This document shows positions 37,702-43,048 of a stretch of 64,000 bases of DNA, piece after piece. The first letter of the stretch is position 1. Each line of letters starts with the position of its first letter. The DNA comes from Thermosinus carboxydivorans Nor1 (GTDB lineage Bacteria > Bacillota > Negativicutes > Sporomusales > Thermosinaceae): NCBI RefSeq assembly GCF_000169155.1, contig NZ_AAWL01000008.1, positions 1-64,000 on the forward strand, in the 5' to 3' direction. The notes below the pieces were generated by a model, which made no database searches, was not told the DNA's origin, and saw only the letters and a program-made list of their open reading frames with translations. The position numbers and the translations under genes are program-made.

Positions 37702-38466
37702 CTAGCGAACCAGGCGGAGCGGTTGGCGCTTGGCTTCCTCGGCCTGGTTAGGACCAATATAACCCTGTTTGACCATGACGGCCAGGACTACTGCCTGGCG
37801 CTGTTTGGCAGCGGTTAAGTTTTCGTAGGGCGAATATACCGACGGCGCGTTGGGTAGGCCGGCCAGCAGAGCGCATTCGGCCAGATTGAGATTCGCCGGC
37901 TCTTTGCCAAAGTAAACACGGGCGGCGTCCTGGATGCCATAAGCGCCGGCGCCAAAATAGATGGTATTGAGGTACATTTCAAGGATCTCTTCTTTGGAGT
38001 AGTGCAGTTCCATGTCGACCGCCAGGATTATTTCTTCCAATTTGCGGCCGACGGACTGCTCTTGCGACAGGAAAAGGTTCTTCACCAACTGCTGGGTAAT
38101 TGTGCTGCCGCCTTCACGCACTTCGCCAGCCTGGAGGTTGACAAGGGCCGCGCGGAGGATGCCCTCAATATCGAAACCAAAGTGCCGGTAATAACGGCTG
38201 TCTTCCACGGCAATGACGGCCTGCTGGAGTGGCAGAGGAATATCAGCCAGTTTGACATAGCGCTTTTTGTCCAGCCTAGCTTCAACGGCGCTTTTTAAGG
38301 CAACGAGACGGTACAGGCGGTCCCAGGCGCCGGTTGCGTCGTGGCCTACCGCGAGCACCTTTTCCACAGACAGAGAATAGGGTTTAACGATGCTGCTGCC
38401 GCCGGCCCACCAAAAGGCGGCTAAGAATAACAAAAGTAGAAAAGCAAGAAAACGCCCTGTCCGCAT
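37702..38466 (-). CDS. mtgA: Monofunctional peptidoglycan glycosyltransferase (GT51)
   Basis: It polymerises lipid II into glycan strands outside the membrane. The 254 residues have one N-terminal membrane span (about 5-22) and the GT51 motifs in order: AVEDSRYYRHFGFD with catalytic E88, GGSTITQQLVKN (119-130), RKLEEIILA and KEEILEMYLNTIYFG. No transpeptidase domain follows, so it is the monofunctional form or a truncated class-A PBP. The start has GGAGGAG upstream on the minus strand. It diverges from cwlD. Confidence 0.93.
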   Translation of the reverse strand: MRTGRFLAFLLLLFLAAFWWAGGSSIVKPYSLSVEKVLAVGHDATGAWDRLYRLVALKSAVEARLDKKRYVKLADIPLPLQQAVIAVEDSRYYRHFGFDIEGILRAALVNLQAGEVREGGSTITQQLVKNLFLSQEQSVGRKLEEIILAVDMELHYSKEEILEMYLNTIYFGAGAYGIQDAARVYFGKEPANLNLAECALLAGLPNAPSVYSPYENLTAAKQRQAVVLAVMVKQGYIGPNQAEEAKRQPLRLVR

Positions 38467-38597: not shown

Positions 38598-39314
38598 ATG
38601 CGCATTTTCGCAATTCGGCGGCGTCTGATGCTCGCGGTCATGTTCAGCGTTGCGGTGGTAGTTCTTAATCTGCTGACCATACGGTATTTGGCGGCCGAAG
38701 ATTGGGAAAATGTTAATTTGTGGGCGCTGGCCGGCCACAAAATTGCCGTTGACCCGGGCCATGGCGGTGTTGACAACGGGGCGAGCGGCAACGGGGTCGT
38801 GGAAAAAGAGGTAACACTCGCTATCGCTTTGAAATTGGCCGATATTTTGCGGCGGTATGGCGCCGAGGTTGTGCTGACCCGCGACAGCGATACCGACTAT
38901 TATACCCGCGGCAAGGGCGGCAAACGCAATGACCTCCTTACCCGGGTGGAAATGATTAATAGTTCAGGGGCCGAAGTATTTATCAGCATCCATGTCAATT
39001 CCATCCGGGGCTCGGCAGCATGGTCGGGAGCGCAGGTTTTCTACAGCCCCAATCTGGTAGCCAACAAGCCGCTGGCCGAACTTGTCCAGCGCGCGCTGAA
39101 AAGTTTTCCGCCCGGAAACAAGCACCAAGCCAAGCAGGATAAGGACATCCTGATATTGAATCGCACCAATATTCCCGGCGTGCTGGTTGAGACAGGCTTT
39201 CTCAGCAACCCGGGCGAGGCGGCGCGTCTTGTAGATGCCGCTTACCAGCAAAAACTGGCAGAACATATTGCCAAGGCACTGGCGCATCATTTCAGCCAAA
39301 ATGTGGGAAGATAA
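38598..39314 (+). CDS. cwlD: N-acetylmuramoyl-L-alanine amidase CwlD-like
   Basis: Amidase_3 zinc enzymes cleave peptide stems from muramic acid. In spore formers CwlD works with PdaA to make muramic lactam in the cortex. The 238-residue protein has an N-terminal membrane anchor (about 9-27), the first zinc histidine in VDPGHGGVDNGASG (H55), E69 or E71, SIHVNS, and the late catalytic VETGFLSNP. The ATG follows GGGAGGGG. The length and single-anchor layout fit CwlD rather than a repeat-bearing autolysin. Its presence suggests sporulation. Confidence 0.88.
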   Translation: MRIFAIRRRLMLAVMFSVAVVVLNLLTIRYLAAEDWENVNLWALAGHKIAVDPGHGGVDNGASGNGVVEKEVTLAIALKLADILRRYGAEVVLTRDSDTDYYTRGKGGKRNDLLTRVEMINSSGAEVFISIHVNSIRGSAAWSGAQVFYSPNLVANKPLAELVQRALKSFPPGNKHQAKQDKDILILNRTNIPGVLVETGFLSNPGEAARLVDAAYQQKLAEHIAKALAHHFSQNVGR

Positions 39315-39349: not shown

Positions 39350-40189
39350 ATGCATAAACTGGTTGGCTGCGCCCTTATGCCCCATCCGCCGATTATGGTG
39401 CCGGAAGTGGGTAAGGGGGAATTGGCCCGCATTAAAGCGACGGTGGCGGCGGCGGAAAAGGCGGCCCAAACGCTGAAAGATGCAAATCCGCAGACCGTGG
39501 TGCTAATTTCGCCGCACGGACCGGTCTTTGAAGATGCCGCCAGCATCAGTATTCATCCCCGAATGAAGGGAAGTCTGGCGACTTTTGGCGCGCCGGATGC
39601 GGTCGTCGCCTTTGAAACGGATGGCCTTTTAGTCCGTTACATCCTGAAAAAATGCGAACGCCTCGGCGTTAATGTGGTGGAGCTTACCGACGATGTGGCC
39701 AAGATGTACCGGCTCAGTCTACAGCTTGACCATGGCGCCGTTGTCCCGCTCTATTATTTGCAAAAAGCCGGGTTTAAAGGCCAGTTGGTCCATCTGTCAA
39801 TGGGCATGTTGCCTTATGAGGAGATGTATACCTTCGGCAAAGCCGTGCAGGCGGCGATTGGCATAGTGGACAAGCGGGTAGCCGTCATTGCTTCCGGCGA
39901 CTTGTCGCACCGGCTTACGTCCGATGCTCCGGCCGGGTACAGCCCGTACGGTGCCCAATTTGACCAGGCGGTGGTTGCAGCATTGAAAAATATGGATGTC
40001 AAAGCCCTGCTCAACCTTGACCGCGGCCTTATCGAAGAGGCCGGAGAATGCGGCCTGCGGCCTATCTTCTTTCTCATGGGCGTGATGGGGGGACTCGATA
40101 TGACAGCCGACGTGCTGTCCTACGAGGGCCCGTTCGGGGTGGGCTACGCCGTAGCCTTGTTTACTCCTAATGAAAGCAGGGGGGAATAA
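39350..40189 (+). CDS. LigB-type domain protein of the AmmeMemoRadiSam module
   Basis: The 279 residues start [20 protein letters not shown] and contain [13 protein letters not shown] and [13 protein letters not shown], as in the class III extradiol-dioxygenase-like (LigB) fold that often precedes an AMMECR1 domain. The enzymatic reaction of this branch is not established. The protein ends at TAA 40187, and AMMECR1 begins two bases on in another frame. In other Firmicutes I recall the two domains fused. The linker contains a G6 run (40159-40194 region, GCAGGGGGGAATAAAG), and one more G would fuse them. Confidence 0.85.
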
Positions 40190-40191
40190 AG

Positions 40192-40707
40192 ATGCCGGAA
40201 GAAAGTGCGCCGGTAGCACTGGCGCGAAAGAGTTTGGAATACTATCTGCAGCATGGGCGCCCAATGCCTGAACCGGCCGACATGCCAGCTGAGCTGCGCG
40301 GTCAGGCGGGCGTCTTCGTGTCGCTAAAAAAGCGGGGCGAGCTGCGTGGCTGCATTGGTACTTTTGTTCCGACGCAGCCTACCATTGCCGCCGAAATTAT
40401 TCAAAATGCCATCAGTGCCGGAACGGGTGACCCCCGGTTCTGGCCGGTTGAGCTTGACGAACTGCCCGAGCTTGATATTTCGGTCGATATTTTGTCAGAG
40501 CCGGAACGGGTGGACAGTTTGGCTGAGTTAGACCCGCACAAATATGGCGTAATTGTCCGGCGGGGACGTCGCAGCGGCCTATTGCTGCCGATGCTGGAAG
40601 GGGTCGATACGGTGGAAGAACAAGTGGCCATTGCCATGCAAAAAGCAGGGATTAAGCCGGGCGAAGAAATCGAGCTCTACCGGTTTACCGTAACCCGGTA
40701 CAAGTAG
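40192..40707 (+). CDS. amrA: AMMECR1-domain protein (AmmeMemoRadiSam component A)
   Basis: AMMECR1 proteins are universally distributed and of uncertain function. The 171-residue protein has the family signature LRGCIGTF near residue 50, then [29 protein letters not shown] (seen as DPRFWPV and LDISVDIL) and ends in a strand/helix. The ATG follows AGGGGGGA. It sits between the LigB-type protein and the radical-SAM gene, which is the defining context. Confidence 0.9.
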
Positions 40708-40716
40708 GTTATTGGC

Positions 40717-41706
40717 ATGCGGGAAGCGCTGTATTATGAAGCTCATCCCAGCGGCGTCGCCTGCCGGTTGTGCCCGAAGCAGTGCATTATACCCGCCGGA
40801 CGGACCGGCTTTTGCCGTGTAAGGAAAAATATTGGCGGCAAACTGTATACTGCCAATTACGCATGCGTTTCGTCATATGCCTTAGATCCAATTGAAAAAA
40901 AGCCGCTTTATCACTTCTATCCGGGCAGTATGATTTTTTCCATCGGTACCTGGGGTTGCAACTTTGCCTGCCAATTTTGCCAGAACTGGGAAATTGCGCA
41001 AGCAACTCCTGCGACACTCGAACTGGCGCCGGAGAAAACGGTGGCCATGGCCGTGCGGGCTGGACACGGCAATATCGGTATTGCTTATACTTACTCCGAG
41101 CCCAGCGTGTGGTATGAATATATTTTCGATACCGCTCAGGCGGCGCGTGCGGCAGGGCTCAAAAATGTATTGGTAACCAACGGCTTTATCAATCCTGAAC
41201 CCCTACGCCGCCTTTTACCCTATATTGATGCCATGAACATTGATGTGAAAGCCTTTAACAGTGAGTTTTACCACCGAGTATGCACCGGGGAATTGGCCCA
41301 TGTAAAACGCACGGTAGAATTGGCCGCTGCGTCCTGTCATGTGGAGATTACAACGCTCATTGTTCCGGGACTTAATGACCAGGAGGAAGAACTGGCCGAA
41401 TTGGCCAAGTGGCTGGGGGGTATCAGTAAAGATATACCGCTGCACTTTTCCCGTTACTTTCCCCGGTATAAAATGACGGCGCCGCCAACGCCGCTGACGA
41501 CTCTCCGGCGCGCCTATGAACTGGCCAGGCAGTATTTGCATTATGTCTATCTGGGGAATATCGGTGACAGCGGTATAAATACACACTGCCCTGTCTGCGG
41601 TAAGTTGGTGATTGACCGCCAGCAGCGGGATAGTCACCTTACATCCGATAAAAAGTGCCCCCAATGCGGGAGCATGATTGCCATTATTGGCGAGTTCTTC
41701 TTCTAG
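40717..41706 (+). CDS. amrS: AmmeMemoRadiSam radical-SAM enzyme
   Basis: This radical-SAM enzyme uses the [4Fe-4S] site C81/C85/C88 in GTWGCNFACQFCQN. The 329 residues also have an N-terminal cysteine group in CRLCPKQC and CRVRKN, and a C-terminal zinc-ribbon-like pair of CxxC motifs (CPVCGK and KKCPQCG). The middle is a TIM-barrel with TYSEPSVWYEY and LVTNGFI. It closes the module; ATG 40717 stands ten bases after the amrA stop. The substrate is unknown. Confidence 0.92.
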   Translation: MREALYYEAHPSGVACRLCPKQCIIPAGRTGFCRVRKNIGGKLYTANYACVSSYALDPIEKKPLYHFYPGSMIFSIGTWGCNFACQFCQNWEIAQATPATLELAPEKTVAMAVRAGHGNIGIAYTYSEPSVWYEYIFDTAQAARAAGLKNVLVTNGFINPEPLRRLLPYIDAMNIDVKAFNSEFYHRVCTGELAHVKRTVELAAASCHVEITTLIVPGLNDQEEELAELAKWLGGISKDIPLHFSRYFPRYKMTAPPTPLTTLRRAYELARQYLHYVYLGNIGDSGINTHCPVCGKLVIDRQQRDSHLTSDKKCPQCGSMIAIIGEFFF

Positions 41707-41792: not shown

Positions 41793-41873
41793 AACCACGG
41801 AGAACACAGAGGCGCGTATTCATCGCGCTAAAGATTAAAGTAAAAAAAATATACCTCCGCGTCCTCTGCGGTT
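41793..41873. repeat. Palindromic intergenic repeat (CACGGAGAACACAGAG type)
   Basis: AACCACGGAGAACACAGAGG (41793-41812) is an imperfect inverted copy of CCTCCGCGTCCTCTGCGGTT (41854-41873), about 15 of 20 positions, with the mismatches being mostly transitions that still allow G-U pairs. Similar elements occur dispersed in many bacterial genomes. It occupies most of the amrS-argC gap together with a small hairpin. Confidence 0.6.
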
Positions 41874-42013: not shown

Positions 42014-43048
42014 ATGAAGGTCAGTATTATTGGGGCAACCGGTTATACCGGTGAAGAACTGCTACGAATTTTGGCCAACCATCCGGCGGCCGAAATTAAA
42101 TACCTTACCTCAGAAAGTCAGACAGGGACGGAGGTAGACAGCATATATCCCCATTTAAACCGCTTTTATAACCAGGCACTGGTAAGTATGGCCGACTTGG
42201 ATAAAATTGTCGCCGCAAGCGATGTTTTATTTATCGCCCTGCCTCATGGCCATGCCATGGAGATAGGGAAGAAGGTAAGCGGCCAGGGCGTCAAAGTGAT
42301 TGATTTAGGCTCTGACTATCGATTTAAAGATATAACCGTTTATGAGAAATGGTATAAAATACCCCACGTTCATCCCGATGCCAAAGCCGTATATGGCCTG
42401 ACAGAACTGTATCGCGACGCGGTGCGTACGGCCGATATAGTCGGTAATCCCGGCTGCTACACGACGGCCAGCATCTTAGCTTTGGCGCCGCTTGTTAAAA
42501 ATAAGCTGATTGACCTGACCTCCATTGTTGTTGATGCCAAATCCGGCATATCGGGAGCAGGTCGGGGGTTAAATTTAACCCACCATCTACCGGAGGCATT
42601 TGAAAATGTTAAGGCTTATAACATTGCTGGTCATCGCCATACGCCGGAAATCGAACAGGCTTTGTCTGAATTAGCCGGCAGCCAGGTGTTAATCAGTTTT
42701 ACGCCCCATCTTATTCCTATGTCACGGGGAATACTAAGCACCTGCTATGCCCGCCTCCTTGACGGGGTAACGGCTAACATGGTTGACGAGGCGTTCCATG
42801 ACTTATACGGGCAGGAGTACTTCATCCGCCTATTGGGCCGGGGTGGTTATCCGGCCACCAAGAATACCCGGGGCTCGAATTTCTGCGACCTTGGTTGGCA
42901 TATCGATACCCGCACCGGCCGGGTTATCGCGGTAGCGGCTATTGACAACCTGGTCAAAGGTGCGGCCGGTCAGGCCGTTCAAAACATGAATGTCATGTTT
43001 GGGTTTGAGGAGCAAACCGGCCTGACCCAGGCGCCGCTTTATCCATAG
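42014..43048 (+). CDS. argC: N-acetyl-gamma-glutamyl-phosphate reductase
   Basis: ArgC reduces N-acetylglutamyl phosphate to the semialdehyde with NADPH. The 344 residues start with the dinucleotide-binding IIGATGYTGEELLRIL, have the catalytic cysteine in GNPGCYTTAS, and AYNIAGHRHTPEIEQ with the conserved histidine. The ATG follows GGGAGG. It opens a seven-gene arginine cluster. Confidence 0.97.
   Translation: MKVSIIGATGYTGEELLRILANHPAAEIKYLTSESQTGTEVDSIYPHLNRFYNQALVSMADLDKIVAASDVLFIALPHGHAMEIGKKVSGQGVKVIDLGSDYRFKDITVYEKWYKIPHVHPDAKAVYGLTELYRDAVRTADIVGNPGCYTTASILALAPLVKNKLIDLTSIVVDAKSGISGAGRGLNLTHHLPEAFENVKAYNIAGHRHTPEIEQALSELAGSQVLISFTPHLIPMSRGILSTCYARLLDGVTANMVDEAFHDLYGQEYFIRLLGRGGYPATKNTRGSNFCDLGWHIDTRTGRVIAVAAIDNLVKGAAGQAVQNMNVMFGFEEQTGLTQAPLYP

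Follow-up and report, generated by a model that had tools for sequence, protein, structure and literature searches.

Bacterial AmmeMemoRadiSam systems bring together a LigB/Memo-fold protein (protein B), an AMMECR1-domain protein (protein A) and a radical-SAM enzyme. The closest described counterparts of protein B are TK2203 of Thermococcus kodakarensis (PDB 5hee), the MEMO1/Memo family (PF01875; PDB 7kq8, 3bcz) and the class III extradiol dioxygenases (LigAB, DesB, HpaD, AmnB). In MEMO1 iron is bound by H49, H81 and C244, the counterparts of H12, H61 and E242 in LigB, and D189 and H192 lie nearby (PMC11081632). For the AmmeMemoRadiSam system as such, a search of the literature for a common reaction or substrate found none, leaving in place the description in an earlier note on this DNA of a module of unknown biochemical role.

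The stretch that we analysed (the window) comprises 64,000 nucleotides of Thermosinus carboxydivorans Nor1, and the tight three-gene operon that the earlier note had described is borne out at the level of both reading frames and families. On the forward strand, open reading frames of 279, 171 and 329 amino acids encode the LigB/Memo-fold protein (39350..40189), the AMMECR1-domain protein (40192..40707) and the radical-SAM enzyme (40717..41706), and all three score above the NCBIfam cut-offs for AmmeMemoRadiSam proteins. The LigB protein, assigned from profile matches and conserved residues, reaches 36.8 bits for TIGR04336 (AmmeMemoSam_B; cut-off 26), 154.8 bits for Pfam LigB (PF02900) and 27.7 bits for Memo (PF01875; cut-off 27). 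The AMMECR1 protein matches TIGR04335 at 139.4 bits (cut-off 99) and PF01871 at 164.8 bits, and carries the invariant LRGCIG motif (C54); the radical-SAM enzyme matches TIGR04337 at 316 bits (cut-off 220) as well as PF04055, and has a CxxxCxxC motif (C81, C85, C88), an N-terminal cysteine cluster (C16, C19, C23, C33) and a zinc-ribbon-like C-terminal tail, for which zinc-ribbon matches fall below cut-off. Judged by these profiles and by the adjacency and order of its components, the operon is an ordinary, intact example of a three-gene system that is widespread in bacteria; it departs from the described form in that its protein B is far more LigB-like than Memo-like by Pfam and in that proteins A and B are separate genes, whereas the fused form is usual in the phylum.

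Elsewhere in the class the radical-SAM enzyme of the system occurs in two lengths, with or without the C-terminal tail, the shorter examples (loci L113, L114, L118 and L107) having 275-290 amino acids against the 329 of the window protein. Many genomes of the order also encode, at another location, a second radical-SAM paralogue that aligns with nearly the full TIGR04337 model and scores about 150 bits, short of the cut-off of 220 (for example G003:C44:80165-81136 and G024:C2:292487-293455).

The surroundings of the operon are themselves conserved. Upstream are a CwlD-like N-acetylmuramoyl-L-alanine amidase (38598..39314, forward strand; Pfam Amidase_3, and 189 bits to TIGR02883, below the cut-off of 221.55) and a peptidoglycan transglycosylase with a PBP1A/MtgA-like glycosyltransferase domain (37702..38466, reverse strand), both assigned with the help of synteny. 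Directly downstream of the radical-SAM gene lies an arginine-biosynthesis block, argC-J-B-D-F-G-H, opening with argC (42014..43048, forward strand; TIGR01850, 448 bits, and synteny). The earlier note had placed the module next to spore and cell-wall genes; the amidase and transglycosylase support the cell-wall part, and the block immediately downstream is one of arginine biosynthesis. Across the class, synteny preserves the order cwlD-LigB-AMMECR1-radical SAM-arg, the close relatives that carry names being Sporomusa and other Negativicutes.

Between the radical-SAM gene and argC, at 41793-41873, the window also holds an inverted repeat, AACCRCRGAGRACRCRGAG, with arms that are mostly about 40-60 bp apart. 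The repeat is scattered over the genome, its arm having 122 matches in the window genome, 26 in the sister species (G001) and 0-2 in 11 other relatives, and a reversed control gave no matches; the sister species keeps a copy at the same position (G001:C13:26714-26794). Folded as RNA, the window copy has only a slight advantage over shuffled sequences (z -1.9). The repeat resembles a short interspersed palindromic element that has expanded in this genus.

The separation of LigB and AMMECR1 raises the question of whether a single protein has been broken in the window. The earlier note stated that the two domains are usually one protein, which is right for the wider phylum, where only 11 of the AMMECR1 frames listed fall short of 380 amino acids, and it pointed to a run of six G at 40179..40184 (forward strand). 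Its arithmetic is sound: AMMECR1 starts 842 nt past the LigB start (842 mod 3 = 2), and one added G would bring the two into one frame. A frameshift or assembly error that removed one G from a single LigB-AMMECR1 protein would thus account for the window and agree with the fused state of most relatives in the phylum. The comparison that the note itself had proposed does not bear out a lost fusion, however, since near relatives are split too. In the sister species, whose LigB is 96% identical, the frame ends AGC AAG GGG GAA TAA AAATG, with five G and the split in the same frame, against AGC AGG GGG GAA TAA in the window; the two junctions, AAGCAAGGGGGAATAAAAATG in the sister species and AAGCAGGGGGGAATAAAGATG in the window, are of equal length and differ by substitution, with no indel. 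Throughout the window's order a short AMMECR1 frame of its own is the rule, seen in 25 of 26 cases, and only genome G012 has the fusion (the 26 are the order-level frames listed, with sister-level duplicates left out and the window genome not counted apart). We compared 50 split loci for the frame of AMMECR1 counted from that of LigB, which is 1 in 24 of them, 2 in 19 and 0 in 7, and the LigB stop often falls within or beside the AMMECR1 start; with all three frames represented, there is no one indel by which split and fused loci differ.

The position of the run offers a different reading. It falls within the last LigB codons, the sequence AGGGGGGA sits about 8 nt ahead of the AMMECR1 ATG, and several Sporomusa loci have at the same position TAGGAGG, containing the canonical GGAGG ribosome-binding site. 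Together with the five G of the sister species and the 50 junctions, this marks the run as the Shine-Dalgarno site of AMMECR1 and not a frameshift site. That a G is missing from the window is accordingly a reading to which we give almost no weight, and the separation is, on this comparative evidence, natural in the lineage. Programmed slippage at the run as a conserved device was considered and rejected: among the 50 split loci, none but the window's has a G6 within 30 nt of the LigB stop.

Mapped onto LigB trees, the split and the fused state require about 7-11 changes, with fusions nested in a split clade (G012; L160/G355), a pattern that shows the two forms to have interconverted several times. 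An AlphaFold2 model of the G012 fusion consists of two domains predicted with confidence (pLDDT 91.9) and, between them, a disordered linker (residues 279-288), with a whole-chain pTM of 0.63; given the disordered linker and the low whole-chain value, joining or separating LigB and AMMECR1 should matter little.

We compared the fold and putative active site of LigB with those of its described counterparts. In the model of a fused homologue, the LigB domain is closest to TK2203 (Z 34.5 over 256 residues, rmsd 2.2), followed by extradiol dioxygenases (Z 23-29) and MEMO1 (Z 20.9), and the AMMECR1 domain is closest to PH0010 (Z 21.9). TK2203, the nearest solved structure, shares 23% identity, and at its third ligand position the alignment has neither ECG nor Glu. 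The candidate metal-binding or catalytic residues of the window protein are H12, H56, D184, H187 and C234. Where the locus includes AMMECR1, D184, H187 and C234 occur in 82 of 82 LigB domains, H12 and H56 in all 81 that cover them, and H128 in all but one of the 82. The residue aligned with the dioxygenase Glu, E233, varies (71 E, 10 Q and 1 T), whereas the adjacent C234 is invariant, from which we infer a Memo-like 2-His-1-Cys metal site of H12, H56 and C234. The preference for C234 over E233 as the putative third ligand draws on this conservation and on a weak profile alignment of LigB to Memo (probability 1.8%). With the Memo family the protein shares a fold, at only 16% identity, and would share an H/H/Cys pattern with a D..H pair, the residues of which are all present and invariant, C234 being a ligand predicted from sequence.

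These features bear on whether the operon is catabolic and its LigB protein a genuine extradiol dioxygenase that uses O2 to break down aromatic compounds. Its Pfam LigB score, its two putative histidine ligands and a fold near those of the aminophenol, gallate and protocatechuate dioxygenases (Z 25-29) are what such an enzyme would have, yet the invariant cysteine stands beside the dioxygenase Glu position, and every dioxygenase equivalog cut-off is missed by far (56 against 315.95 bits for HpaD_Fe, the others lower). Nor does the setting suit a catabolic role: the hosts are largely strict anaerobes, and the neighbours are cell-wall and arginine genes, with no aromatic-degradation gene labelled in the loci. 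We consider a dioxygenase very improbable. The earlier note's label of LigB-type stands by Pfam, with the caveat that the protein also passes AmmeMemoSam_B and that its invariant Cys234 is Memo-like and not LigB-dioxygenase-like.

We scored 220 genomes of the class for LigB, AMMECR1 and radical SAM, finding all three in 124, LigB alone in 17, LigB with AMMECR1 in 6 (no radical-SAM match at the threshold used, with at least two, G501 and G505, carrying interrupted or contig-end pieces), LigB with radical SAM in 1 and none in 70. In the remaining 2, which have AMMECR1 and radical SAM and no LigB match, AMMECR1 is fused to a Memo domain and the fusion adjoins the radical-SAM gene (L223:5138-6640 in G369; L224:4939-6441 in G465). 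A Memo domain here takes LigB's place in the same system, so the two folds are interchangeable there. AMMECR1 without LigB or Memo was found in none of the 220 genomes.

Two variants of the LigB gene turned up in the same sample. A short LigB of 206 amino acids, lacking approximately residues 58-126 of the window protein and with its catalytic residues intact, directly follows a TIGR04337 gene with no adjacent AMMECR1 at L128:9437-10054 (G033:C22) and L216:6069-6689 (G486:C67), the latter genome having no AMMECR1 match at all. The genus g42 of f18 has a second LigB-AMMECR1 fusion paralogue (for example at L225, L227, L228, L232 and L234) with HCG for ECG and N for R237, and no radical-SAM gene after it; two genomes, G461 and G479, contain this paralogue only, with no TIGR04337 gene above cut-off.

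That g42 LigB-AMMECR1 fusions occur in genomes without the TIGR04337 radical-SAM enzyme indicates that the three components do not always work together, and the intact fusions kept by G461 and G479 suggest that the radical-SAM step is separate and dispensable. Alternatively, the radical-SAM enzyme might be a maturase that turns a partner residue, for example in the AMMECR1 LRGCIG motif or at LigB Cys234, into a protein-derived cofactor. Its similarity to glycyl-radical activases and the invariance of C54 and C234 would fit, as would genome G255, which has lost the radical-SAM gene and has D184N in a LigB-AMMECR1 copy whose orthologues precede that gene. The persistence of intact-site fusions without TIGR04337 in G461 and G479 argues the other way, and eukaryotic AMMECR1 and MEMO1 retain the same motifs in hosts that are not known to have the AmmeMemoRadiSam radical-SAM enzyme. 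On balance a maturase seems unlikely, and we prefer a separate radical-SAM step.

Some of the 17 LigB-only genomes are assembled completely or almost so (G049, G043, G368), and no LigB-only genome that was re-searched had TIGR04337 above cut-off. In most of them LigB adjoins CwlD or MtgA, ahead of arginine genes, and in every one the site is changed. In f150 all of H12, H56, D184, H187 and C234 have been lost; G043 has lost nearly all site residues, G412 H12, H187 and C234, and G044 H187 and C234. The g18 LigB-only species have D184N with P14S and G235S, and the orphaned LigB copies of G035/G052, genomes whose AMMECR1 now forms a fusion with a different LigB at another location, have D184E and H128Y. 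The losses in g18 and f16 are mild, with only D184 changed among the five residues and the putative ligands kept, and these proteins may still bind metal. On a tree built without the site columns, all six independent partner losses are accompanied by an altered LigB site (sign test p 0.031, indicative only, as the residue set was picked post hoc and several rows lie on long branches).

Altered sites might mean simply that the LigB-only proteins are decaying pseudogenes, and so say nothing about a second role. We place beside the lost catalytic residues and long branches, which would suit decay, the evidence from reading frames, selection and predicted structure. Full-length open reading frames are present in at least 14 of the genomes, and the position beside MtgA or CwlD and the arg genes is conserved. 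Pairwise dN/dS among g18 LigB-only genes is 0.06-0.09 (dS 0.17-0.75), near that of the adjacent argC and argJ, and within one f150 genus it is 0.03-0.07 (0.065 for the unsaturated pair L211/L214, with dS 0.28), rising to 0.15-0.21 in comparisons with L208, which is more distant and saturated at synonymous sites. Both LigB-only groups tested, g18 and f150, are under strong purifying selection. For an f150 protein that has lost all five residues, AlphaFold2, from an alignment that included intact homologues, predicts a LigB fold (pLDDT 91.0, pTM 0.91) with Z 26.9 to 5hee and 24-25 to dioxygenases. Decay is on these grounds improbable, and we favour retained function.

Purifying selection and a retained fold in proteins without site residues suggest that the LigB fold is kept for something beyond its conserved site. 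That site thus depends on the partners AMMECR1 and radical SAM, and LigB seems to serve a second function. Whether LigB/Memo has two separable jobs, a metal-dependent catalysis needing AMMECR1, usually with radical SAM, and a non-catalytic job kept with an altered or lost site, is to our minds an evenly balanced matter; the non-catalytic job is perhaps linked to the cwlD/MtgA-arg locus.

The explanation that we hold to be the best, and somewhat probable, is an intact Negativicutes AmmeMemoRadiSam operon: its LigB/Memo-fold subunit and its AMMECR1 come naturally from two coupled genes, form one catalytic unit whether joined or not, and leave LigB a second role. In such a unit H12, H56 and C234 would hold a metal, probably Fe, as in MEMO1, D184 and H187 would serve as acid/base, and AMMECR1 would supply or present the substrate, on which the radical-SAM enzyme would carry out an earlier or later radical step. 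The reaction would be metal-dependent and, because the hosts are mostly strict anaerobes, probably not an O2-dependent ring cleavage. Its likeliest substrates may be nucleobases or other small molecules of biosynthesis, a class that published work has predicted: the study by Burroughs and colleagues on the PCAD-Memo superfamily (2019, J Biol Chem) reportedly proposed nucleobase and isoprenoid modification. The second, proposed role of the LigB fold would be non-catalytic, and would explain why LigB survives alone.

What is new here is the apparently Memo-like site, the constant pairing of AMMECR1 with LigB or Memo, and the LigB-only losses with an altered site, of which the LigB-only proteins are most worth following. 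The value lies in comparison: in the class sample AMMECR1 never occurs without LigB or Memo, Memo can stand in for LigB, and LigB sheds catalytic residues once AMMECR1 and radical SAM are gone and is still selected, which is a clue to the system's job and narrows the candidate catalytic unit to LigB/Memo plus AMMECR1. The comparison also names residues for testing, and provides pairs of close relatives with and without the catalytic system (G031/G049, G057/G044, G361/G052) whose metabolites or modified RNA could be compared. The system's relatives include human MEMO1 and AMMECR1; if the two jobs are indeed separable, nature would have provided, in the LigB-only genomes, separation-of-function mutants of a system with these human relatives.
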